A stretch of DNA of 64,000 nt from Calditrichia bacterium. GTDB taxonomy: Bacteria > Calditrichota > Calditrichia > RBG-13-44-9 > J075. Each line of letters starts with the position of its first letter. Position 1 is the stretch's first letter. The notes beneath the pieces are model-generated. The model ran no database searches. It was not told where the DNA came from and saw only the letters and a list, made by a program, of their open reading frames with translations. The translations under genes were made by a program, and so were the position numbers. The DNA is taken from assembly GCA_028284905.1 (NCBI GenBank), contig JANQQU010000062.1:1-64000 (forward strand), written 5' to 3'. Below, piece by piece: positions 1,358 through 21,065 of this stretch.

Positions 1358-1471
1358 CTAAAATTTTACGGTCTCAAACTTCTCCGCAACAGACACCAAA
1401 CGCCTCAACTCATCACTGAGCCGATCTCCCTTCCTGGATGATTTTCCCAAGGTCAACTCATATTCACTCAT
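1358..1471 (-). CDS. small protein translationally coupled to the TIR-Roco gene
   Basis: This 37-residue frame begins MSEYELTLGKSSRKGDRLSD. Its ATG at 1469-1471 overlaps the stop of the upstream LRR-Roc-COR-TIR gene (GATGAGTGA arrangement), so translational coupling is likely. Residues 6-33 are nearly identical to a second frame at 4084-4233 on the other side of the big gene. That copy continues with a different, longer tail, whereas this one ends in ETVKF and stops, so it may be truncated. The sequence is charged and helical, with no recognised family. Retained coding similarity in both copies supports a real peptide. Confidence 0.45.
   Translation of the reverse strand: MSEYELTLGKSSRKGDRLSDELRRLVSVAEKFETVKF
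1373..1456 (-). repeat. 84-bp direct repeat, copy B (downstream of the TIR-Roco gene)
   Basis: By eye this matches 4150-4233 at 78 of 84 positions in the same orientation. The two copies bracket the LRR-Roc-COR-TIR gene, and both encode the same 28-residue stretch in frame. Confidence 0.85.
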
Positions 1472-4025
1472 CCCCATCCAAAATCTCCGCCACCCGATCG
1501 GCCAGGGCAACGAGCACTTTATCCTGTTCATTCTCCGAAAGTCCGGAAAGCGCCTCCGAGGACGGATTGACCGACTGTATTTCCCTTAATGTCTTATTCT
1601 TACTAAACCGGCAAGGCTTAATGATCAGCGGAATAACCACCGCGCCATCGTCTTTGGCTGCTTCCAGGAGCTCGGGGAGCTCTTTCTTCATAATAAAATC
1701 CGAAGCGAGGAAATCGGTGCTGACCAACAGGATGGCCACTTTCGTGGCGGCCAGGGCCTTCTCAATTTCTTCCCGCCAGGCCATACCGGGTTTGATTTTG
1801 GTGTCGTCCCAGAGGTTGACGGCGATGCCTTCATGTTCCAGAACTTTCAAGTGGGGCTGGATACGCGCCAGCCAGTCCTTGTCCTTGTGGGAGTAGCTGA
1901 CGAAGACTTTTTCACGCACGCCGGAAGTTGTTGAATGCCTGGACGGTCTGTCCTTGGGACGAGTAGGGTTGATTACTTCATCCATCAGGCTGCGAATATG
2001 GATGCGCTCATAGCTGTTGTCACATTCGACATGATCTACCCGATCATTTAAGCGTTTCATCAGTTTACGATAGGGAAACAAGTGAGGTTTATCTTCCTCT
2101 TTACAAGTTTCGCAATTACAGGGAATCAGTTTCTCCACCTTCATTTTTTCGAATTGCTCATTGATGCCGTCGATGGTCTCACTAATAATTGTCATGAAAT
2201 CCCGGCGATTTTGGCCGGAGACGCGAATCTCAATATTACGGGCGTCATAGCTTTCGATGATTTCCGCCGGGGTGTTCTCCCGCTCCAGCATCACACCGCG
2301 CTTCCAGACTTTCTCATGGTCATTGATGTAACGATGCAATTGCACAATCGTTTGGGACATAATCCCTTTCGGCATAAAGACATCGTAATTGTAGCGGAGG
2401 AAAAGATTGTTTGTGGTATCCCAGTCGTATGCCGGTTGCTGGTTTGGCAGACGCTCCGGCACAATGTATTCCCCGGAACGATCGATTTCGTAGGTGAGGA
2501 AGAATTTCTCCATTAAACGAAGCAGTTCATCCCGAATCGGTTCAAAATCATCATCCGCCCAGATTGTCTCAGTATCTGACTTGGAGAAACGCCCATTCCG
2601 GCGGCGGAGCAGCTCGTCATCGAGCACTTGATAAACCGCATTGGTCGCCCAGTTCGGTTTCAGGAAGATGGTTTTCCGGAGCAGAGCATCTTCCTGGAAA
2701 TGTAGGAAGACCCCGATGTCATGAAAATATTGGCTGAGCAGCAGGGCATCTTCGCGTTTCTCGATGCCGTTTTCCCTGCAAATGGCCAGGTAGTCCTGCC
2801 GGGAAATGGTCTGGCGTTGTTCCTGCTCCAGTGCTTCCCGAACCTTTGTCCAATTTGCCGGCACCGGGCTGCCGATATGGGGCAAATCAACCGCAAAATA
2901 CTTGACGGCCCGGGCGAGCTTGTCCAGGCGCTCATGGTCACTGTCAGCAAAATCGACGGTGTAAACATCCTTGATGTTCGAAAAACGCTTTTTCATGGCG
3001 GGAATATCGAGATGGCGTTCCCGTCCATGCTTTTCGTTGAGGATGATCAACAAAGGACTCTCTCCACCGAACATTTCGACAATATGCAGCCAATAGTTGA
3101 AGTCGGTGTCTTCATTGCGGCTGTCTGCTACCAGGGCGTAAAGGGAACGCTTGGAAAGAAAGAAGCGGTGCGTAGCTTTATAGATTTCCTGTCCGCCAAA
3201 ATCCCAGAGATTCAGGCGAAAGCGTTCCCCAACCAACTTGTGCGGATGCGGGAAGCCGGGAAAATCTTCCTCTCGTAGGGGGAAATAGTATTGCTTGACC
3301 TCAATGCCGCGAGTGGTATCTTTTTCGCTAGGCAAGTCACAATCCTTGTTTTGCAGTTTGCAGGCCATGCTGGTTTTCCCGGCACCCGGTTCGCCGACGA
3401 TAAGCAGTTTTGCCTCGAAGAGGTAGTCTTCTTGCTGCGCCTTTAATTGGGCGAAATAGTTGCGGATTTTTTCGACATTGCCCCTACTTGTAGCAATTTC
3501 CACGGGTGGGGTTTGTAAGGGATTATTATTCAAATTCAAGTCGCAGTAATCTTTCAAATTGCCGAGGGTCTCCGGCACACTGTTTAACTGGTTATCCTGA
3601 AGAAATAATGTAGTCAGGTTGGTCAAATTGCCGAGGGTCTCCGGCACACTGTTTAACTGGTTATCCTGAAGAAACAATATAGTCAGGTTGGTCAAATTGC
3701 CGAGGGTCCCCGGCACACTGCTTAACTGGTTCGACTCAAGAAACAATGTAGTCAGGTTGGTCAAATTGCCGATGCTCTTCGGCACACTGCTTAACTTATT
3801 AGCATGCAGCGATAAAAATTGTAAATGTTCAAATTGCAGTATAATTTCAGGAAACTCTTTTAGCTCAAGTTCATCCAGTGCCAGCTTTATCACTCGCTGT
3901 TGCTTGTTCAGCTGAAAAGCACCTTTATAGATTTCACTATCATTGAAATCTTTCTCTTCTTCCAAAGAAATCCCCAGCTCAACTACCAATTTTTTAATCA
4001 ATTCCAAATCAGTTGGCATCGACAT
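1464..4025 (-). CDS. LRR-Roc-COR-TIR protein (Roco-family GTPase with TIR effector)
   Basis: This 853-residue multidomain protein has, in order: an N-terminal helical region; leucine-rich repeats of 23 residues (about 60-185); a Roc GTPase with P-loop GEPGAGKTS (Lys217), DTTRG switch and DFGGQE (275-280); a COR-like region (about 390-690); and a TIR domain (705-853) starting EKVFVSYSHKDKDW. Glu782 in FIMKKELPEL lies where TIR NADases carry their catalytic glutamate. The Roc G4 motif is weak (LNEKH instead of NKxD). Roco proteins are GTP-regulated switches. Bacterial TIR domains often cleave NAD+ in abortive-infection immunity, so a sensor-switch-effector role is plausible but inferred. It sits in an accessory segment beside a probable transposase. 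The start at 4025 is the first ATG before the helical N-terminus. Confidence 0.93.
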   Translation of the reverse strand: MSMPTDLELIKKLVVELGISLEEEKDFNDSEIYKGAFQLNKQQRVIKLALDELELKEFPEIILQFEHLQFLSLHANKLSSVPKSIGNLTNLTTLFLESNQLSSVPGTLGNLTNLTILFLQDNQLNSVPETLGNLTNLTTLFLQDNQLNSVPETLGNLKDYCDLNLNNNPLQTPPVEIATSRGNVEKIRNYFAQLKAQQEDYLFEAKLLIVGEPGAGKTSMACKLQNKDCDLPSEKDTTRGIEVKQYYFPLREEDFPGFPHPHKLVGERFRLNLWDFGGQEIYKATHRFFLSKRSLYALVADSRNEDTDFNYWLHIVEMFGGESPLLIILNEKHGRERHLDIPAMKKRFSNIKDVYTVDFADSDHERLDKLARAVKYFAVDLPHIGSPVPANWTKVREALEQEQRQTISRQDYLAICRENGIEKREDALLLSQYFHDIGVFLHFQEDALLRKTIFLKPNWATNAVYQVLDDELLRRRNGRFSKSDTETIWADDDFEPIRDELLRLMEKFFLTYEIDRSGEYIVPERLPNQQPAYDWDTTNNLFLRYNYDVFMPKGIMSQTIVQLHRYINDHEKVWKRGVMLERENTPAEIIESYDARNIEIRVSGQNRRDFMTIISETIDGINEQFEKMKVEKLIPCNCETCKEEDKPHLFPYRKLMKRLNDRVDHVECDNSYERIHIRSLMDEVINPTRPKDRPSRHSTTSGVREKVFVSYSHKDKDWLARIQPHLKVLEHEGIAVNLWDDTKIKPGMAWREEIEKALAATKVAILLVSTDFLASDFIMKKELPELLEAAKDDGAVVIPLIIKPCRFSKNKTLREIQSVNPSSEALSGLSENEQDKVLVALADRVAEILDGDE
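3555..3830 (-). repeat. 69-bp near-identical tandem repeats inside the LRR coding region
   Basis: Units begin at 3555, 3624, 3693 and 3762, a period of exactly 69 bp or 23 codons. The first two differ at very few positions and the fourth is more diverged. They encode the repeat GNLTNLTTLFLQDNQLNSVP. The high DNA identity shows recent expansion or homogenisation of leucine-rich repeat units. Confidence 0.9.
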
Positions 4026-12084: not shown

Positions 12085-14256
12085 ATGGATAGCCTTGTGA
12101 TTGCAGTCTTTAGTCTGTCCTTGCTTCTGTTCCTAAATTGCTCGAAAGAAGGGGAGACCATGACGCACCAGTTCACCAATCGTTTAGTTAATGAGAAAAG
12201 TCCATATTTGTTGCAACATGCCCATAATCCGGTCGACTGGTATCCCTGGGGAGAAGAAGCTTTCGCAGCTGCCAAAGCTGCCGACAAACCCATTTTTCTT
12301 TCGATCGGCTACTCAACCTGCCACTGGTGCCATGTGATGGAGCATGAATCATTTGAAGATACCAGCGTCGCAGAATTGATGAATGATGCCTTTATCAACA
12401 TCAAAGTTGATCGGGAAGAGCGCCCCGATGTAGATGATATCTATATGACTGTTTGTCAATTACTTACCCAACGCGGCGGCTGGCCCTTGACAATCATAAT
12501 GACCCCGGATAAAGAACCGTTTTTTGCCGGCACTTACATTCCGAAGGACAGCCGTTTTAATCGACCAGGCATGATGCAATTGGTGCCGGGAGTGAAGCGT
12601 GCCTGGGCAGAGCAGCGGGAGCAGGTGCTGAAATCTGCCCGCGAAATCACCGATGCACTAAAGAAAAGCAGTGGCGGGCTGCCTCCGCAAAAACTGAATG
12701 ACAGTATACTCGACAGCGCCTTCCAAAGTATGGAGAATCGCTTCGATCCTGAGTACGGCGGATTTGGCGAGCATCCGAAATTCCCGACGGCGCACAACCT
12801 GATGTTCCTGCTCCGTTATTTTCAGCGCAGCGGCGATCCGCACGCCTTGGCGATGGTCGAAAAAACTTTACAGGAGATGCGCAAAGGTGGCATGTACGAC
12901 CATGTCGGCTTTGGTTTTCATCGCTACTCGACCGATAAAGAATGGTTGCTGCCCCACTTTGAGAAGATGCTTTACGATCAGGCTATTAACGCCATGGCCT
13001 ATACGGAAACCTACCAGATTACCGGTAACGAAATTTATAAATCGACAGCAGAAGAAGTATTTGCCTACGTTCTCCGGGACATGACCGATGCGCAGGGGGG
13101 ATTTTATTCTGCGGAAGATGCGGACAGCGAAGGGGAGGAAGGCAAGTTCTATGTCTGGGAATATGGTGAGTTAATCGACGTTCTGGGTGAAGAAGACGGG
13201 GCGCTTTATGCAACAGTCTTTAATTTTAAGGAAAAAGGTAATTTTCGGGACGAAGCCACCGGTGTGCTCCACGGTGCGAACATCCCCCATTTAAAGGATG
13301 GTTTAGCGGTAGTTGCAGCTGCCAATAATTTGACGCTGCCAGAATTAACGGAAAAGTTGGCCCCCGCTCGGCAGAAGCTGTTTGAAGTCCGCGAAAAACG
13401 CATCCATCCGTTGAAAGATGATAAAATCCTGACCGATTGGAATGGACTGATGATTGCCGCTTTCGCTAAAGCCGCCCAGGCATTCGATGCGCCGGAATAT
13501 GCTGGAGCTGCCAGCAAAGCTGCAGATTTTATACTGGAAAATATGCGCACGAAAGAAGGGCGCTTAATGCATCGCTATCGGGAAGGCGAGATTGCAATTA
13601 ATGGCTATCTGGACGATTACGCATTTATGATCTGGGGATTATTGGAGCTTTATGAAACCAATTTTCAAATCAAGTATTTGCAAAGCGCTTTAGATTTAAA
13701 CGCTCAGGTGCTCAAGCATTTTTGGGATGATAATGATAAGGCTTTTTTCTTTACCGCCGACGATAGTGAGGCTTTGCTGCTCCGCAAGAAAGATGTTTAT
13801 GACGGTGCAGTCCCCTCAGGGAATTCCGTGATGGTATTAAACCTCCTTCGCCTGAGCCGGATAACAGCAAATACGGATTTTGAAGCAAGAGCTGCTCAAA
13901 TTACCGAAACATTCGGCGCGCAGGTGGCGCGTTATCCGGATGGATTTACCATGTTGCTAATGGGGCAGGGTTTTGGCGTTGGTCCATCCTGGGAAATTGT
14001 TATTTGTGGAGATCCGGCAGCACAGGATACCAAAGACATGCTACAGGCGATTCAACAACGCTTTTTGCCCAACAAAGTGATCCTGCTGAAGTCCGCTGAA
14101 GACCAGGGAATACTGGAAGAAATCGCCAATTACACCGCAGGCATGCAAGCGCTCGACGATAAGGCAACGGCCTATGTATGCCGCGATTTCAGTTGCGAAT
14201 TACCGACATCCAATATCCTAAAAATGTTGGCGTCACTTCAACTGAATGAAAAATAA
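12085..14256 (+). CDS. DUF255 thioredoxin-domain protein (YyaL/SPATA20-like), possible lipoprotein
   Basis: This is a 723-residue protein. A thioredoxin-like DUF255 domain starts with [19 protein letters not shown] and carries the CHWCH redox motif in [17 protein letters not shown] large alpha/alpha-toroid region follows, resembling N-acylglucosamine epimerase-type barrels. The biochemical role is not established. Family members normally begin near MTHQFTNRL, an ATG here at 12160 with GGGGAG three bases upstream. The frame extends in front to an ATG at 12085 and adds a hydrophobic segment ending LFLNCSKEG, a plausible lipobox. Both starts may be used, giving cytosolic and lipid-anchored forms. 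That is an inference. Confidence 0.9.
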
Positions 14257-14280
14257 AATTGCCCGCTAATTAAAAAATAG

Positions 14281-14308
14281 TTGCATCCTGAATCTTTCTG
14301 CCTATATT
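14281..14308 (+). promoter_or_regulatory. candidate promoter of the his leader
   Basis: TTGCAT (14281-14286) and TATATT (14303-14308) are separated by 16 bases and lie just upstream of the first His-rich leader peptide. This is a good sigma-70-type match in a position that makes functional sense. Confidence 0.55.
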
Positions 14309-14331
14309 TGCAGCATCAAAGGATAAAAATC

Positions 14332-14403
14332 ATGATTCAAATGAACGCCCACATCCATCATTATCATGCACATTCCAATCAAACGGAACGGTGGGCCGAA
14401 TAA
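14332..14403 (+). CDS. hisL: his operon leader peptide 1
   Basis: A 23-codon frame preceded by AAAGGA eight bases before the ATG. Residues 6-14 read AHIHHYHAH, five histidines in eight codons, and the frame ends 24 bases before an intrinsic terminator. This is the layout of a ribosome-mediated transcription attenuator: ribosome stalling at His codons when charged tRNA-His is scarce would prevent terminator formation. The downstream genes are the complete histidine operon. A second His-rich leader follows at 14487. The gene symbol is used by analogy with the enterobacterial leader, because the peptide itself has no conserved sequence. Confidence 0.85.
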   Translation: MIQMNAHIHHYHAHSNQTERWAE

Positions 14404-14427
14404 CTGTATATAAAATTTTTTGAATAT

Positions 14428-14462
14428 AAAAGCCTGCTGTTCCACCAGCAGGCTTTTTTTTT
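14428..14462 (+). terminator. attenuator terminator 1 of the his operon
   Basis: The stem AAAGCCTGCTG / CAGCAGGCTTT has a six-base loop and about nine T residues after it. It sits directly after His-rich leader 1. No strong competing antiterminator arm was found by eye. Confidence 0.9.
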
Positions 14463-14486
14463 GCCATAACATGAAAAGAGAAATCA

Positions 14487-14540
14487 ATGAGAACTTTACA
14501 TCGCCATCATCATATTCATCATCATTTCCCACCGGGATAG
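14487..14540 (+). CDS. his operon leader peptide 2
   Basis: This 17-codon frame reads MRTLHRHHHIHHHFPPG, with seven histidines among the first thirteen residues, including two runs of three. A weak AAGAGA ribosome-binding site precedes it. It is followed by a second intrinsic terminator. The bases just after and within its stop codon (AGCGGA, 14539-14544) are identical to the 3' arm of that terminator. They could therefore pair with the 5' arm (TCCGCT, 14578-14583) as an antiterminator when the ribosome stalls. The frame has no similarity to leader 1 beyond His richness, so it does not look like a simple recent duplication. Confidence 0.85.
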   Translation: MRTLHRHHHIHHHFPPG

Positions 14541-14573
14541 CGGATGTGCTTTGTAAATTTAGATTTAATGGAA

Positions 14574-14605
14574 AAAGTCCGCTGCCCCAGTAGCGGACTT
14601 TTTTT
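14574..14605 (+). terminator. attenuator terminator 2 of the his operon
   Basis: Ten-base-pair stem AAAGTCCGCT (14574-14583) / AGCGGACTTT (14592-14601) with an eight-base loop and a run of seven T residues. It separates leader peptide 2 from tRNA-His. Confidence 0.9.
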
Positions 14606-14611
14606 GTACAT

Positions 14612-14685
14612 GGTAGTCGTAGCTCAACTGGTGGAGCACCGGTCTGTGGAACCGGAGGTTGCGGGTTCAAGCCCCGTCGGCTACA
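14612..14685 (+). tRNA. tRNA-His (GTG anticodon) inside the his operon leader
   Basis: The acceptor GTAGTCG pairs with CGGCTAC (one G-U). The D stem is GCTC/GAGC, the anticodon stem CCGGT/ACCGG encloses CTGTGGA (anticodon GTG), and the T stem GCGGG/CCCGT encloses TTCAAGC. A G is present at position -1 (14612), but the discriminator is A rather than the C73 usual in bacterial tRNA-His. No CCA is encoded. It lies between attenuator terminator 2 and hisG (gap of 38 bases) on the same strand. Confidence 0.93.
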
Positions 14686-14723
14686 CAAAGTAAACAACAA
14701 TAACACTGAAAAAGGAGATAGAA

Positions 14724-15581
14724 ATGGATAAGAAATTGCGCGTCGTGGTGCCGAAAGGAAGAATTTTTTCAAAAGTATCGAAGCTGCTTGCGGAAGCGGG
14801 TGTTAGTCTAAGTGGCGATGAACGGGCTTACCGCCCGGTAGCCAGCGATCCGGAAATTGAAATCAAGATAATGAAACCGCAAAACATTCCAAGATTGTTG
14901 GAGCTGGGCTCCCACGATGTTGGTTTCACCGGGCTGGACTGGATACAGGAAACCGGCGCCGATGTTCAAACGATTATGAAACTGAATTTTGACCCGGTGC
15001 GAATTGTTGCCGCCATTCCGGAAAATATCGATGAAGCCGCCTTGAGGCAGAAAAGGATTACAGTTGCTACGGAATACGAAAAAATTGCCCGGGAGTACCT
15101 CAATTCTCAAAATTACGATTTTCTCATCCTGCGCACTTTCGGTGCAACGGAAGCTTTCCCGCCTGATGATGCGGACATGATCATCGACAACACCTCAACC
15201 GGGCGCACACTCGCCGAACACCACCTGAAAATAATTGACACGATAACCACTTCTTCGACATGCTTTGTTGCCGGAAAAGCAGTAGAAAATGATCCCTGGA
15301 AGAAATCGAAAATAGAACGTCTTAGTATGCTCTTCAAGTCGATTCTCGACGCGAGCGAGCGGGTAATGTTGGAAATGAATGTCAGTAAGGAGCAGCTAGA
15401 GGACGTTATTCGAATTTTGCCAAGCATGCGTGCCCCGACAGTATCTTCGCTCTACAACCAAGATGGTTATGCGGTAAAAACAGCGGTTCGCACCAACGAA
15501 GCTGCACAGTTAATACCTCGCTTGCGGGAGATAGGCGCTACGGATATTCTTGAATACAATTTCAGAAAGGTGGTTATATGA
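14724..15581 (+). CDS. hisG: ATP phosphoribosyltransferase, long form
   Basis: This enzyme catalyses the first, committed step of histidine synthesis, joining ATP and PRPP to give phosphoribosyl-ATP. The 285-residue length and a C-terminal regulatory-type domain (after about residue 210, ending in EIGATDILEYNFRKVVI) identify the long, HisZ-independent form. Such enzymes are usually feedback-inhibited by histidine. The catalytic domain shows VVVPKGRIFSK at the N-terminus and the PRPP-binding DMIIDNTSTGRTL loop. The ATG at 14724 follows AAGGAGATAG. It is the first protein gene after the attenuator/tRNA-His leader and overlaps hisC by four bases. Confidence 0.97.
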   Translation: MDKKLRVVVPKGRIFSKVSKLLAEAGVSLSGDERAYRPVASDPEIEIKIMKPQNIPRLLELGSHDVGFTGLDWIQETGADVQTIMKLNFDPVRIVAAIPENIDEAALRQKRITVATEYEKIAREYLNSQNYDFLILRTFGATEAFPPDDADMIIDNTSTGRTLAEHHLKIIDTITTSSTCFVAGKAVENDPWKKSKIERLSMLFKSILDASERVMLEMNVSKEQLEDVIRILPSMRAPTVSSLYNQDGYAVKTAVRTNEAAQLIPRLREIGATDILEYNFRKVVI

Positions 15582-16624
15582 TTCCGGTTCGGGAAGCTGT
15601 CGCCGGGGTGCAGGCCTATGGATTGTTACCGGGCGACCGCCGCAAAATGATTCGCATGGATTTGAATGAGAATGCCTGGGGATGTTCACCGAGAGTGCTC
15701 GAAGCACTACAGGAAATCGCCCCGGAAGATATCGGTGTTTATCCGTATTATGCCGATTTTCTTGCGGAAATCGCCCGCGTAAACAATGTTTCAGAGGACA
15801 ACCTGGTACTTTCCAATGGGGCAGATGATATTATTCGTACCATCATGCAAGTGTTTGTTGATGCTGGGGAAAAGGTGCTGGTTGCCGATCCTTCTTTCGG
15901 GATTATCGCACTACATGCGCAAATTGTCGGTGCCGAATTATGCAAAATGCCTTATGAGGACGATTTAAATTTCCCGTTGGAGAAATGCCTGCAGGAGCTA
16001 CCCAGCGCAAAGCTGCTTGCCATCGTGCGGCCTGACAGTCCGACCGGCACGTTTATCTCCCGGGAAAACCTGCAGCTGATTTTGGCGGCTGCGCCAAACT
16101 GTATTGTTATGCTGGATGAGACTTACCACCACTTTCTTGGCGAATCCTGCCTGGATTTGCTGGAGAGCTACCCAAACTTAATTATTATTCAATCCTTCTC
16201 TAAAGCTTATGCCTTGGCCGGTTTGCGAATTGGACTGGCTTTCGCCCAGCGGGAAGTTGTTGGAGAACTGCGAAAAGTTGCGTTGCCATTTGCCGTAAAT
16301 GCGTTAGCGGTGAAGGCAGGGATGGCGGCACTGAGAGACACGGACTATCTCGCAATGACCATTCGGGAAATGAAGGCTGAAAAAGCCTGGTTGCGGGAAC
16401 AGTTTGATAAATTGGGATATGATTCCCGCGATTCTTTCGCGAATTTCATTCTGGTCAACATCGGTGAACGGGCGGATGAGATTGCGGAACTGTTGAAATC
16501 CGAGAATGTTTATGTGAAGAATCTAAATAAAATGGACTTACTGAAAGGGTGGTATCGGATGACTATCAATCGCCGTCCGGAAAACGAAAAATTGTTAAGC
16601 GTAATAAAAGGAACGATGCCATGA
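15578..16624 (+). CDS. hisC: histidinol-phosphate aminotransferase
   Basis: This 348-residue PLP-dependent fold-type I aminotransferase converts imidazole acetol phosphate and glutamate to histidinol phosphate. The N-terminal DLNENAWGCSPRVLEAL substrate region, VRPDSPTGTFIS, and the PLP lysine motif SFSKAYALAGLRIGLA are clear. The ATG overlaps the hisG stop (ATGA), and the stop overlaps hisB in the same way, so translation is coupled. The length is typical. No anomalies seen. Confidence 0.96.
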   Translation: MIPVREAVAGVQAYGLLPGDRRKMIRMDLNENAWGCSPRVLEALQEIAPEDIGVYPYYADFLAEIARVNNVSEDNLVLSNGADDIIRTIMQVFVDAGEKVLVADPSFGIIALHAQIVGAELCKMPYEDDLNFPLEKCLQELPSAKLLAIVRPDSPTGTFISRENLQLILAAAPNCIVMLDETYHHFLGESCLDLLESYPNLIIIQSFSKAYALAGLRIGLAFAQREVVGELRKVALPFAVNALAVKAGMAALRDTDYLAMTIREMKAEKAWLREQFDKLGYDSRDSFANFILVNIGERADEIAELLKSENVYVKNLNKMDLLKGWYRMTINRRPENEKLLSVIKGTMP

Positions 16625-17208
16625 GAATCGCAGAAATCAACCGGGAAACCCGGGAAACGCAAATCAAAATGTCTATAAATCTCGATGGCAGCGGAGCGGC
16701 AGAGATTAAAAGCCCGATCGGCTTCCTGGGGCACATGCTCGATACTTTTTCCCGGCACGGTATCTTCGATCTAAACGCAGAGATCGCTGGTGATCTGGAG
16801 GTCGACCAGCACCACACCATCGAGGATACCGGCATTGTATTGGGGGAAGTCATCAAAAAAGCGCTGGGTGATAAACGCGGGATTAAACGGGCAGGATTCT
16901 TTGTTTATCCCATGGACGAAGCGTTGGTTACCGTCGCTGTAGACATTTCCGGACGCCCTTTTCTGAAACTGGATGCTGAATTTAGCTCGGTTGCCGTCGG
17001 GGAGTTTCCGGTAGAATTGCTGGAAGATTTCCTGTTAGGGTTTACCAATGCGCTTGGTGTCAATCTACATGTGCTGGTTCATTATGGGCGCTCGGATCAT
17101 CACAAAATCGAGGCCGTCTTCAAAGGACTGGCGAAAGCAATGAAAATGGCTTGTGAAATTGAACCGCGCATCAAGAATCAAATCCCCAGCACGAAAGGAG
17201 TGTTGTGA
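16621..17208 (+). CDS. hisB: imidazoleglycerol-phosphate dehydratase
   Basis: This 195-residue monofunctional enzyme dehydrates imidazole glycerol phosphate to imidazole acetol phosphate. The manganese-binding histidine clusters are present: GHMLDTFSRHGIFD, DQHHTIEDTGIVLG and GRSDHHKIEAVFKGLAKA. There is no HAD histidinol-phosphatase domain, so that activity must come from another gene outside this operon. The ATG at 16621 overlaps the hisC stop (ATGA). An upstream in-frame ATG inside hisC at 16549 is ignored because the family starts at MRIAEINRET. Confidence 0.96.
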   Translation: MRIAEINRETRETQIKMSINLDGSGAAEIKSPIGFLGHMLDTFSRHGIFDLNAEIAGDLEVDQHHTIEDTGIVLGEVIKKALGDKRGIKRAGFFVYPMDEALVTVAVDISGRPFLKLDAEFSSVAVGEFPVELLEDFLLGFTNALGVNLHVLVHYGRSDHHKIEAVFKGLAKAMKMACEIEPRIKNQIPSTKGVL

Positions 17209-17804
17209 TGATCGGCGTAATAGACTATGGGGCAGGGAACCTTCGTTCTGTCAAAAAAGCGTTGGACTTTCTTGGGGTAAAAAATCGGGTCATTGATGAT
17301 CCCGCCCAGTTAAGCGGCATTGAGAAAATGCTCCTCCCCGGCGTTGGTGCATTTCAGGCATCTGTGGAGCAGCTGCAGAAAAAGTCGTTGTTCGATCCCG
17401 TTAAAGTGTGGCTGCAGGAGGATCGGCCATTTTTAGGTATCTGCCTCGGCATGCAGGTGCTTTTTCAGGATGGCGAAGAAAATCCCGGTATTACCGCGCT
17501 TGGTATTGTTGATGGATCTGTGCCGCGTTTTCAGCATGAACGGGTGCCGCAGATTGGCTGGAATAAAGTGTTCTTTACCCGCGAAACGCCGCTGGCAAAT
17601 GGGCTCGGCAAAGACGCCTACTTCTATTTCCTGCACGGTTTTTACGTCGCACCGAAGGATCCGGCGGTCGTCGTTGGAGAAACCGAGTATGGCATACGCT
17701 ATCCCTCGATGATCGCCCGGGGAAATATGACCGCAGTACAGTTTCACCCGGAAAAAAGCGGGGAGAATGGATTGACATTATTAAAAAATTGGGTGGCGAT
17801 ATGA
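17208..17804 (+). CDS. hisH: imidazole glycerol phosphate synthase, glutaminase subunit
   Basis: This is the class I glutamine amidotransferase subunit that supplies ammonia to HisF, with about 198 residues. The triad is visible: the cysteine in GICLGMQVLF, and the histidine and glutamate in QFHPEKSG. DYGAGNLRSVKKAL at the N-terminus is a family hallmark. The ATG at 17208 shares one base with the hisB stop (TGATG) and lies seven bases after GGAG, which is better than the GTG one codon earlier. It overlaps hisF by four bases. HisF is the next gene, as expected for a heterodimer. Confidence 0.96.
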   Translation: MIGVIDYGAGNLRSVKKALDFLGVKNRVIDDPAQLSGIEKMLLPGVGAFQASVEQLQKKSLFDPVKVWLQEDRPFLGICLGMQVLFQDGEENPGITALGIVDGSVPRFQHERVPQIGWNKVFFTRETPLANGLGKDAYFYFLHGFYVAPKDPAVVVGETEYGIRYPSMIARGNMTAVQFHPEKSGENGLTLLKNWVAI

Positions 17805-18556
17805 TAACAACACGTTTAATTCCCTGCCTCGATGTTGATGATGGCCGGGTGGTAAAAGGAATAAAGTTTAAAGGCATTCGTGATGCTGGCGATCCCGTAG
17901 ATCTCGCCAAGCGCTATAACACCCAAAACGCAGATGAGCTGGTGTTTCTGGATATCGGCGCCTCTTACAAGAGCCGGGAAACGATGCTCAATGTTGTTGA
18001 GGCTGTCTCCCGGGAAGTGTTTATCCCGCTAACTGTTGGTGGCGGTATTCGCACGGTCGTTGATATGCGCAATGCCCTGATGGCCGGTGCAGACAAAGTG
18101 GCCATCTGCTCGGCAGCGCTGGCGAACCCGGAAGTGCTTTCCGAAGGGGCATACCAATTTGGGGCACAGTGCGTCGTTCTTTCCATCGATGCGAAGCGGG
18201 AAGGAGAGAATTGGTATGCTTTCACCCATGGTGGCAGAAAAAACAGTGGTCGGGAAGTCGTGGAATGGGCGAAGGAAGCTGCAAAGCTCGGCGCCGGTGA
18301 AATTCTGCTTAACTCAATCGACCGCGATGGTACCAAGGCAGGATTCGACATAGAGCTGCTAAATGCGGTTGGGCAGGCGGTGAATATACCGGTCATTGCT
18401 TCCGGTGGCGCCGGCACTTTGCCGCAGATCCTCGAAGCGGTAAATGCCGGTAACGCAGATGCCGTTTTGCTTGCTTCGTTGTTGCATTACGGCGAATTTA
18501 CCGTGCAAGAAATTAAAACCTACTTGGAAAAGAATGGAGTGAAAATGCGATGGTAG
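17801..18556 (+). CDS. hisF: imidazole glycerol phosphate synthase, cyclase subunit
   Basis: This 251-residue (beta/alpha)8 barrel converts PRFAR plus ammonia into imidazole glycerol phosphate and AICAR. The N-terminal RLIPCLDVDDGRVVKGIKF contains the catalytic aspartate, and GGGIRTVVDM, LNSIDRDGTKAGFD and ASGGAGTLPQ form the phosphate sites and second catalytic Asp. The ATG at 17801 overlaps the hisH stop (ATGA). The gene order hisF before hisA is the reverse of the enterobacterial order. Its end overlaps the next gene by seven bases. Confidence 0.97.
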   Translation: MITTRLIPCLDVDDGRVVKGIKFKGIRDAGDPVDLAKRYNTQNADELVFLDIGASYKSRETMLNVVEAVSREVFIPLTVGGGIRTVVDMRNALMAGADKVAICSAALANPEVLSEGAYQFGAQCVVLSIDAKREGENWYAFTHGGRKNSGREVVEWAKEAAKLGAGEILLNSIDRDGTKAGFDIELLNAVGQAVNIPVIASGGAGTLPQILEAVNAGNADAVLLASLLHYGEFTVQEIKTYLEKNGVKMRW

Positions 18557-19794
18557 TGGCATCAATAGACTTAATGGATGGAAAAGCCGTGCAATTACGG
18601 CAAGGTGCGGAGAAGATTCTCGAAGTGGACAATCCGCTGGCGTTGGCAGACAAGTTCAATCGTTATGGAGATGTCGCAATTATCGATCTGGACGCCGCAC
18701 TGGGACAGGGAGACAACCGGGCGTTAATGCGTCAACTGATTACCCGTTGTGATGCCAGGGTCGGGGGTGGGATTCGCACAGTCGAACAGGCGCAGGAGTG
18801 GATCGCACTTGGCGCCCAAAAAGTGATTCTCGGGTCAACAGTGTTCGCCGATGATAAATTGAACATCCCCTTTCTGGAAGCTTTAGGAAAAGTGTTGTCT
18901 CCACAGGAGATCATCATCGCTATAGATGCACGGGGAGATGAGATTGTCACTAAGGGCTGGAAGCATCGCACCGGCATCAATCTGTATGAAGCAGCGGCGT
19001 CACTTTCTCCGTATGCCGGCGAGTATCTCTTTACCTGCGTGGAAAGAGAAGGCACTATGCAGGGAATTGATACGGATATTTTGGACAAGCTGCAGAAGGC
19101 AACCAGTCGAAAGATTACTGCCGCCGGAGGTGTTCAGTCGATTGATGAAATCGCAATGCTCGCTAAAAGGGATCTCGATGTTCAGCTCGGCATGGCGCTG
19201 TATACCGGCAAAGTAGATTTGGATGATGCTTTTATCGCCTCACTGAATTGGAAAGAGGACTTAATGCCAGTGATTACCCGGGATGATGCCGGGAGAATCT
19301 TAATGCTCGCTTACGCGAACCGAGAGTCGCTGGCAAAAACTTTTGCAGAAAACAAAATGTGTTATTTCTCCCGCTCCCGAAACCAGCTATGGTTAAAAGG
19401 GGAAACCAGTGGTCATTATCAGGATTTGCAAACCATGCGGACCGATTGTGATCGGGATACTTTGCTGGCAACGGTGAAACAAAGCAATGTTGCCTGCCAC
19501 ACCGGCAGCTACAGCTGTTTTGGCGACAAAGGTTTTTTACATCAGGATTTATATGAGGTAATTGCAGATCGCATGGAAAACCCCAGTCCACAGTCTTACA
19601 CCGCTAAGCTGCTTGGGCCACTATTGGATGAAAAGATCATGGAGGAAGCACAGGAGTTGATTGAGGCACCAGATCGGGAGAACATGATTTGGGAAGCTGC
19701 CGATCTTTTATATTTTTGGACAGCCTACCTGGCAAAAAACAGAATTACAATAGATGAAGTATTGCAAGAACTTTATCGAAGGAGACGAAAATGA
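18550..19794 (+). CDS. HisA-HisI-HisE trifunctional fusion
   Basis: This single 414-residue polypeptide has three enzyme domains. Residues 1-232 are a ProFAR isomerase (HisA) barrel with SIDLMDG (Asp7), VGGGIRT and AIDARGD (Asp126). Residues about 236-330 are phosphoribosyl-AMP cyclohydrolase (HisI) with SRSRNQLWLKGETSGH and the metal cysteines in TDCDRD (Cys300), ACHTGSYSC (Cys316, Cys323). Residues about 345-414 are phosphoribosyl-ATP pyrophosphatase (HisE) with EEAQELIEA and EAADLLYFW. They cover consecutive steps 2, 3 and 4. HisI-HisE fusions are common; addition of HisA at the N-terminus is unusual. No stop or frameshift separates the parts, and no other hisA or hisI occurs here. Confidence 0.94.
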   Translation: MVVASIDLMDGKAVQLRQGAEKILEVDNPLALADKFNRYGDVAIIDLDAALGQGDNRALMRQLITRCDARVGGGIRTVEQAQEWIALGAQKVILGSTVFADDKLNIPFLEALGKVLSPQEIIIAIDARGDEIVTKGWKHRTGINLYEAAASLSPYAGEYLFTCVEREGTMQGIDTDILDKLQKATSRKITAAGGVQSIDEIAMLAKRDLDVQLGMALYTGKVDLDDAFIASLNWKEDLMPVITRDDAGRILMLAYANRESLAKTFAENKMCYFSRSRNQLWLKGETSGHYQDLQTMRTDCDRDTLLATVKQSNVACHTGSYSCFGDKGFLHQDLYEVIADRMENPSPQSYTAKLLGPLLDEKIMEEAQELIEAPDRENMIWEAADLLYFWTAYLAKNRITIDEVLQELYRRRRK

Positions 19795-21065
19795 AAATCA
19801 TTTCCGGAAAAGAACTGCCGAAGTCTTTCTTCGCTTATAAAGATGAAGATGCCAGCGAGGCAGTTAGTGAAATATTGGAAGATGTCAAGCGCAGCGGTGA
19901 CGAGGCTGTGCGCAAATACACCTCCTGGTTTGATGGCGTTGATCTCGAAAATTTCGTTTGTAGCGCAGCAACCATTAAAGCTGCGTATGATCAGGTATCC
20001 AACGCATCTATAGAAGCGATTCAAAAAGCAGCTGAAAATATTCGCAAATTTGCGAAAGTACAAAGAAACAGTTATAACGATTTCGAGGTGGAGTTAACCC
20101 CGGGCGTACGGACCGGCCAGCGAATTACTCCCATCGAGCGAGTTGCGGTATATGCGCCGGGAGGGCGTTTCCCTTTGGTCTCCTCTGTCTTGATGGGAGG
20201 TATTCCGGCGCGGGTTGCCGGCGTCAAGGAACTGGTGGTTTGTTCCCCGCCTGGGAGTGATGGCAAAATCCATCCGGCAATTTTAGTTGCAGCAGATATT
20301 GTCGGGGCGGATGAAGTCTACTGTATTGGTGGCGCCCAGGCGATTGCCGCTCTGGCTTATGGCACTGAAACAATTCGTGGTGTCGATAAAATCGTCGGAC
20401 CTGGGAATAAATATGTCGCAGAAGCGAAAAAGGCCGTTTATGGCATTGTGGGCATCGATCTGATCGCCGGACCTACCGAAGTACTGGTGATCGCGGACGA
20501 CAATGCCAACCCGGAAATTCTCGCAGCGGATTTACTCGCGCAGGCAGAGCATGATGTAGATGCTTTGGCGATTTTAGTGACGCCTTCCCGCCAATTGGCT
20601 GATGCTGTTAAGAATACCGTGGAAACGCAGCTGGCAAAATTGAAGAACCGGGAAACTGCCGCAGCTTCGATTGCAACCAATGGCGTTGTTGTGCTAGTTG
20701 ACAATCTTGCAGAAGCAGTGGCAATTGCCAACAGAAAAGCACCGGAACATCTCGAAGTGCAAGTTGAAAATCCTGCGGATATACGGGACGACTTAAAAAA
20801 TTTCGGCGCACTGTTTATTGGCGAAATGTCCGCAGAGGTGCTCGGTGATTATAGTAGCGGAATTAATCACACCCTGCCAACAAACGGCACCGCGCGCTAT
20901 CGTGGAGGATTGGGCGTGCAGGATTTTCTCAAGATTCAATCCACACTACAGGTGACAAAAGAAGGCTTCGCCGAGATAGCACCAATTGCTGAAATGATGG
21001 CAGAAACGGAGGGACTTGGTGCGCATGGGAAGGCGGTTACTGCCCGGAAGAAGTTGTTGAAGTAG
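19791..21065 (+). CDS. hisD: histidinol dehydrogenase
   Basis: This 424-residue zinc enzyme oxidises histidinol twice to histidine, the last step of the pathway. Typical segments are ERVAVYAPGGRFPLVSSVLM, GGAQAIAALAYGTETI, VGPGNKYVAEAKK, the zinc-ligand QAEHD, and SSGINHTLPTNGTARYRGGL with catalytic and ligand residues. The ATG overlaps the stop of the preceding fusion gene (ATGA). It is last in the operon here, whereas it is second in the enterobacterial operon. A strong hairpin lies downstream, but its T run faces the other strand. Confidence 0.97.
   Translation: MKIISGKELPKSFFAYKDEDASEAVSEILEDVKRSGDEAVRKYTSWFDGVDLENFVCSAATIKAAYDQVSNASIEAIQKAAENIRKFAKVQRNSYNDFEVELTPGVRTGQRITPIERVAVYAPGGRFPLVSSVLMGGIPARVAGVKELVVCSPPGSDGKIHPAILVAADIVGADEVYCIGGAQAIAALAYGTETIRGVDKIVGPGNKYVAEAKKAVYGIVGIDLIAGPTEVLVIADDNANPEILAADLLAQAEHDVDALAILVTPSRQLADAVKNTVETQLAKLKNRETAAASIATNGVVVLVDNLAEAVAIANRKAPEHLEVQVENPADIRDDLKNFGALFIGEMSAEVLGDYSSGINHTLPTNGTARYRGGLGVQDFLKIQSTLQVTKEGFAEIAPIAEMMAETEGLGAHGKAVTARKKLLK

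Follow-up and report, generated by a model that had tools for sequence, protein, structure and literature searches.

The attenuator of the enterobacterial his operon and single histidine (His) leaders are textbook knowledge. In this study, we analyzed the region upstream of hisG in a Calditrichia bacterium (GCA_028284905.1), where two His-rich leader units in series and a gene for histidine transfer RNA (tRNA-His) precede the his operon. The window, which is the whole stretch of DNA analyzed, covers positions 1 to 64,000 of contig JANQQU010000062.1 (C25:1-64000 in our numbering), and the genome comprises 8.55 Mb in 93 contigs. In the hisL system, a leader open reading frame (ORF) with His codons and the alternative of antiterminator and terminator set the his operon by the charging of His-tRNA (PMC1183508). 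Salmonella mgtCBR has two short leader ORFs, each with its own attenuator, and one of them senses charged tRNA (PMC3641672). Tandem T-boxes before trpE form two sensors of the charging of the same tRNA in series (PMC4342826).

The upstream neighbor gene ends at 14256, and the intergenic region from there to hisG at 14724 holds both units and tRNA-His. From 5' to 3', a promoter-like site, leader 1, terminator 1, leader 2, terminator 2, tRNA-His, and the Shine-Dalgarno of hisG follow one another. Leader peptide 1 (14332..14403, +) has 23 amino acids, MIQMNAHIHHYHAHSNQTERWAE, with five His in codons 7-14 (five His in eight codons), and is preceded by AAAGGA. Leader peptide 2 (14487..14540, +) has 17 amino acids, MRTLHRHHHIHHHFPPG, with seven His in 17 codons, and is preceded by AAAAGAGA, a weak Shine-Dalgarno. 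When ORFs with an ATG start, at most 35 codons, and at least five His in nine codons were searched for, two were found on the + strand of the window and none on the - strand, and 60 dinucleotide shuffles of the window, searched on both strands, contained none. A looser threshold of at least four His in nine codons gave 48 ORFs across the 60 shuffles. Within the 8.55-Mb genome, the CAYCAYCAYNNNCAYCAYCAY pattern is unique to leader 2, where it appears once. Judged on their codon runs, both leaders are short ORFs with many codons for the regulated amino acid, and both are far beyond chance. The two His-rich ORFs before the his operon that a preliminary description had named were thus confirmed, with the His counts given there.

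Each leader is followed by an intrinsic terminator that lies between the ORF and the structural genes. Terminator 1 with its T-run (14428..14462, +) was detected by both consensus scan and folding, and has a stem of 12 base pairs, the loop TTCCAC, and a fold energy of -18.9 kcal/mol. Terminator 2 with a run of seven T (14570..14605, +) has a stem of 16 base pairs (14570-14585 with 14590-14605) and a fold energy of -22.4 kcal/mol; the consensus scan listed terminator 1 only, and terminator 2 was found by folding. These values agree with the earlier claim that each leader has its own strong terminator, with the second stem now placed from 14570. We also found a competing antiterminator in each unit, which the preliminary description did not contain. 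The 5' side of antiterminator 1 (14385..14396, +) lies within the final codons of leader 1, where a ribosome that has reached the stop codon would cover it, and pairs with 14432-14443 over 12 base pairs including three G-U pairs. The 5' side of antiterminator 2 (14534..14545, +) overlaps the stop codon of leader 2 (14538-14540); 14538-14545 pairs with 14577-14584, and 14534-14536 with 14586-14588. Duplex energies were -21.7 kcal/mol for antiterminator 1, equalled in 1/1000 spacer shuffles, and -18.8 kcal/mol for antiterminator 2, equalled in 4/1000. Whole-fold energies as strong as observed occurred in 6/1000 spacer shuffles for unit 1 and 32/1000 for unit 2.

In both units, an antiterminator segment where the leader ORF ends can pair with the 5' arm of the terminator. 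When the growing RNA was folded ahead of a ribosome placed on the His codons, the antiterminator was the best structure until the 3' arm of the terminator emerged. Taking out the stretch that a ribosome on the stop codon would occupy left the terminator as the only structure. In the computed structures of both units, antiterminator and terminator are thus exclusive, and the position of the ribosome sets which of them forms. A T-box or another known Rfam leader was also considered and rejected; no T-box was present among the Rfam covariance-model matches. The ORFs, terminators, competing pairings, tRNA gene, and operon are present in the sequence, and the earlier claim of two attenuators in series holds for this anatomy, with a full his operon behind them. 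These results suggest that two ribosome-mediated His attenuators in series on one transcript probably gate a second tRNA-His and the whole his operon.

Transcription would start upstream of leader 1, where a putative promoter-like element, TTG-N19-TATATTTG (14281..14310, +), was read from the sequence. It fits what we take to be the Bacteroidota-type consensus, TTTG/TAnnTTTG. Its TATATT may also serve as a sigma-70 -10 element; a scan for sigma-70 promoters did not find the site at 14281-14310. When His-tRNA is plentiful, the leading ribosome would translate each leader to its stop codon and cover the antiterminator segment, and the terminator would form. When His-tRNA is scarce, the ribosome would stall on the His codons; the antiterminator segment, left free, would capture the terminator's 5' arm, and RNA polymerase would continue. 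Because the tRNA and hisG lie behind both units, the polymerase would have to read through each in turn; the overall leak would then approximate one small leak multiplied by the other, and the response would be steeper. With independent units, read-through is predicted to multiply, in line with the preliminary description, and logarithmic sensitivities to add. At a relative codon rate of 1.0, a toy race model with arbitrary rates, given as illustration (five and seven His codons), yielded 0.113 and 0.247 for the units alone and 0.028 for both together. The sensitivity of single attenuators has been treated theoretically (PMC1183508).

The other component absent from the preliminary description is a gene for tRNA-His, located behind terminator 2 and ahead of hisG (14612..14686, +; ARAGORN and Rfam), with anticodon GTG, G-1 at 14612, the body at 14613-14684, and A73 at 14685; CCA is not encoded. 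Only 7 bases separate it from the T-run of terminator 2, which leaves no room for a promoter of its own, so this tRNA would be made only by read-through or from a promoter inside terminator 2 itself. It scored 66.1 bits in the Rfam tRNA model, and its stems, T-loop, and anticodon loop are intact. The GTG anticodon in an intact tRNA fold agrees with a bacterial tRNA-His, and G-1 is present, but it faces A73 instead of C73. G-1 with C73 was found in 35/35 other tRNA-His genes, comprising 20/20 loci of the phylum (including the host's own) and 15/15 elsewhere. Bacterial His identity consists of G-1 and C73, while A73 is found in eukaryotes and some Alphaproteobacteria (PMC9976931).

We then compared this gene with other tRNAs. 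A search of the genome by RNA family gave 49 tRNA matches among 150 scored of 328 first-look candidates, so that a miss is possible, and ARAGORN, run on the loci covering these matches, gave 48 different sequences, including two tRNA-His. Besides the operon copy, there is one in a Pro-Arg-His cluster on contig C32; it has G-1 and C73 and matches the operon copy at only 49/74 positions. Also on contig C32 (L070:155-331), ARAGORN reported two adjoining tRNA-like genes with an apparent four-base anticodon, cttg. Counterparts of the ordinary copy in relatives have G-1 and C73 as well, at all 20 loci examined (37/40 genomes of the phylum had a match). No counterpart of the operon copy was found in the 39 other genomes of the phylum, and among the weaker matches, the 14 loci checked held tRNA-Trp, -Arg, -Thr, and -Asp. 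Outside the phylum, its core is 84-92% like tRNA-His of other genomes (L203-L207) and, over 67 bases, 88% like a tRNA on a Curtobacterium plasmid. Among 23 loci around such matches, 15 carry tRNA-His, all with G-1/C73, and hisG was nearby in 0/23. Since it resembles tRNAs outside the phylum and no counterpart was found within it, the operon tRNA-His looks acquired. A genome-wide rule that a cognate leader stands ahead of tRNA genes was rejected on 31 tRNA genes; besides His, weak leader-like matches were seen ahead of Lys, Phe, and Arg tRNAs, and the Phe one (L005) overlaps an ordinary terminator.

One histidyl-tRNA synthetase (HisRS) in the genome is above cut-off (L175, contig C52). Its closest Protein Data Bank entries are 3hrk (E 2.6e-158) and 3hri (E 2.7e-154), which we take to be trypanosomatid (Trypanosoma) HisRS, and 1kmm, presumably the E. 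coli enzyme, was far weaker (E 4.4e-37). The HisRS of T. brucei is independent of G-1 (PMC9976931). Given this likeness and the G-1 independence of the T. brucei enzyme, the idea that A73 simply leaves the tRNA uncharged was dropped. A second HisRS-like frame on contig C66 gave two partial matches, both under cut-off.

To place the locus among its relatives, hisG was searched for in two sets. The first comprised 146 genomes, of which 93 matched; 30 loci were taken, one being the window's own. The second comprised 80 named loci, 76/80 with at least 400 bases upstream. Three loci are common to both sets, leaving 106 distinct other loci; the nearest hisG relatives among named genomes are Calditrichota metagenome-assembled genomes. 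A His-rich short ORF upstream of hisG was found in 5/29 of the first set (L033, L035, L036, L041, and L052, the last two weak); a 56-codon GTG-started frame at -695 in L033 was not counted as a leader. In the second set, such an ORF with at least three His in eight codons was present in 33/80 loci, 24 of which had at least four, and an intrinsic terminator followed it in 22/33. Overall, about a third of the 106 loci carry a single His-rich leader, and a relative of the same family (G001, L033/L096) has the one-unit form. Many of the Spirochaetota loci L098-L174, mostly Treponema, have a single His-rich leader before hisG, often with a terminator, for example MFNKIMNLVHLHAHHHHSHHEAIR in L104. 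In L113 and L117, a His-run leader and terminator lie about 400 bases before hisG, and the terminator ends some 270 bases or more before the gene. In L035, 73-163 bases upstream of hisG, the final codons of the leader MLNLLHHHHIHHHCA double as one arm, the 5' one, of an apparent terminator. Stalling of the ribosome could thus block this terminator directly, with no antiterminator involved.

Several observations weigh against two working attenuators in series. The Shine-Dalgarno of leader 2 is weak, and the whole-fold test of unit 2 was modest. Folding of full-length RNA favored each terminator over its antiterminator in stability, so antitermination has to rely on kinetic capture, as it does in known attenuators. 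The Rfam histidine operon leader, which we believe to be RF00514, was absent from the 12 matches with E up to 1, and the best leader-type match was Thr_leader at 35.1 bits versus a gathering score of 55. Two leaders in series were found at 0/106 other hisG loci (0/80 in the named set), and the closest hisG relative (G003, 65% identity, L032/L095) has no His leader. The comparison with relatives for conserved tandem leaders, which the preliminary description had proposed as a check, was therefore negative; relatives have one leader or none, and as far as the 106 loci go, the tandem leaders and tRNA-His look lineage-specific. The one-unit relatives, together with the fewer His codons and looser run of leader 1, would also fit a locus in which only one unit works and the other is a relic, left from an earlier leader or from a duplication. 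However, the ORF, start, Shine-Dalgarno-like site, antiterminator, and terminator are retained in both units, whereas an idle unit would be expected to decay. Recent duplication is unlikely, as the best local alignment of the units covers terminator sequence only, and the possibility that they are recent copies of each other was rejected. We consider a relic improbable. Separate promoters would also weaken the series effect, because transcripts from an internal promoter would pass unit 2 only. The sigma-70 scan of 13900-15000 did give a single site, a weak 9-of-12 match at 14495-14522 inside leader 2 and upstream of terminator 2. However, this is one site against a mean of 2.2 in shuffles, and a start there would skip the His codons of leader 2 and leave an unregulated terminator, which makes this explanation very unlikely.

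The two attenuators in series may also gate the operon without the tRNA having a part in the circuit. The tRNA-His could be an incidental foreign insertion that tolerates its position, with the attenuators serving only hisG and the genes behind it. In favor of this, a non-cognate tRNA stands directly upstream of hisG at 2/106 other loci (tRNA-Arg at 2345-2420 of L119 and tRNA-Val at 2420-2495 of L048); no tRNA-His was found there at any of the 106. The foreign look of the gene, with no counterpart found in the phylum, and the departure of A73 from the usual bacterial His identity point the same way. On the other hand, the tRNA is the cognate one, which would be a chance match of about 1 in 24 as two of the 48 distinct genome tRNAs are His, and its structure is intact. 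An incidental insertion is a serious possibility that falls a little short of even. Alternatively, we tentatively propose a closed loop, in which histidine and a dedicated second tRNA-His would both be made only on read-through, so that the charged tRNA itself, and not the amino acid, would be regulated. In such a loop, the tRNA would be processed and matured from the read-through transcript, and A73 may set the starvation-induced tRNA apart from the housekeeping one, for example through a different charging efficiency by the unusual, trypanosomatid-like HisRS.

The his operon behind the attenuators is read from the + strand. The Shine-Dalgarno AAAGGAG (14711..14717, +), a sequence reading, precedes a long-form hisG (14724..15581, +; TIGR00070 and TIGR03455 above cut-off). 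The rest of the operon (15578..21065, +) consists of hisC (15578-16624; profile score slightly below cut-off), hisB (16621-17208), hisH (17205-17804), hisF (to 18556), a hisA-hisIE fusion (18550-19794), and hisD (19791-21065). The fusion encodes one protein of 414 amino acids, which is below most HisA/HisIE cut-offs and above those of the cyclohydrolase and diphosphatase parts. Elsewhere in the window (1464-4025, -), an 853-amino-acid protein shows leucine-rich repeats, a GTPase-like stretch, and a TIR-like C-terminus (weak NCBIfam matches).

The relatives extend His leader peptides to Calditrichota and Spirochaetota. In the open-licence literature, which leaves out most subscription papers, we found no same-signal leader-peptide attenuator pair, no tRNA gene within a his leader, and no tRNA-His gene behind a his attenuator. 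If the proposed reading is true, two leader-peptide attenuators with one signal, gating the gene of the cognate tRNA as well, would constitute a new circuit. Such a circuit would let one ask, in a natural setting, whether attenuators in series gain tightness and steepness at the expense of maximum expression, and whether the supply of a tRNA in the cell is set by its own charging level. Like enterobacterial hisL, the locus has His-codon leaders, competition between antiterminator and terminator, and the his operon as target. However, hisL has one leader, one terminator, and no tRNA gene in the leader, whereas two units and tRNA-His are present here; the antiterminator segment is located where the leader ORF ends, and no separate pause hairpin was identified in the leader region. 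The single His leaders of Calditrichota, Spirochaetota, and other relatives share the signal, the target, and the terminator behind, but have one unit and no tRNA-His. The mgtCBR pair responds to different signals, ATP and proline, and has been called a singular example (PMC3641672), whereas both units here would respond to histidine. As with the trpE T-boxes, the charging of the same tRNA would be sensed twice in series ahead of a biosynthetic operon; those T-boxes bind uncharged tRNA directly, whereas the sensor here would be the translating ribosome.
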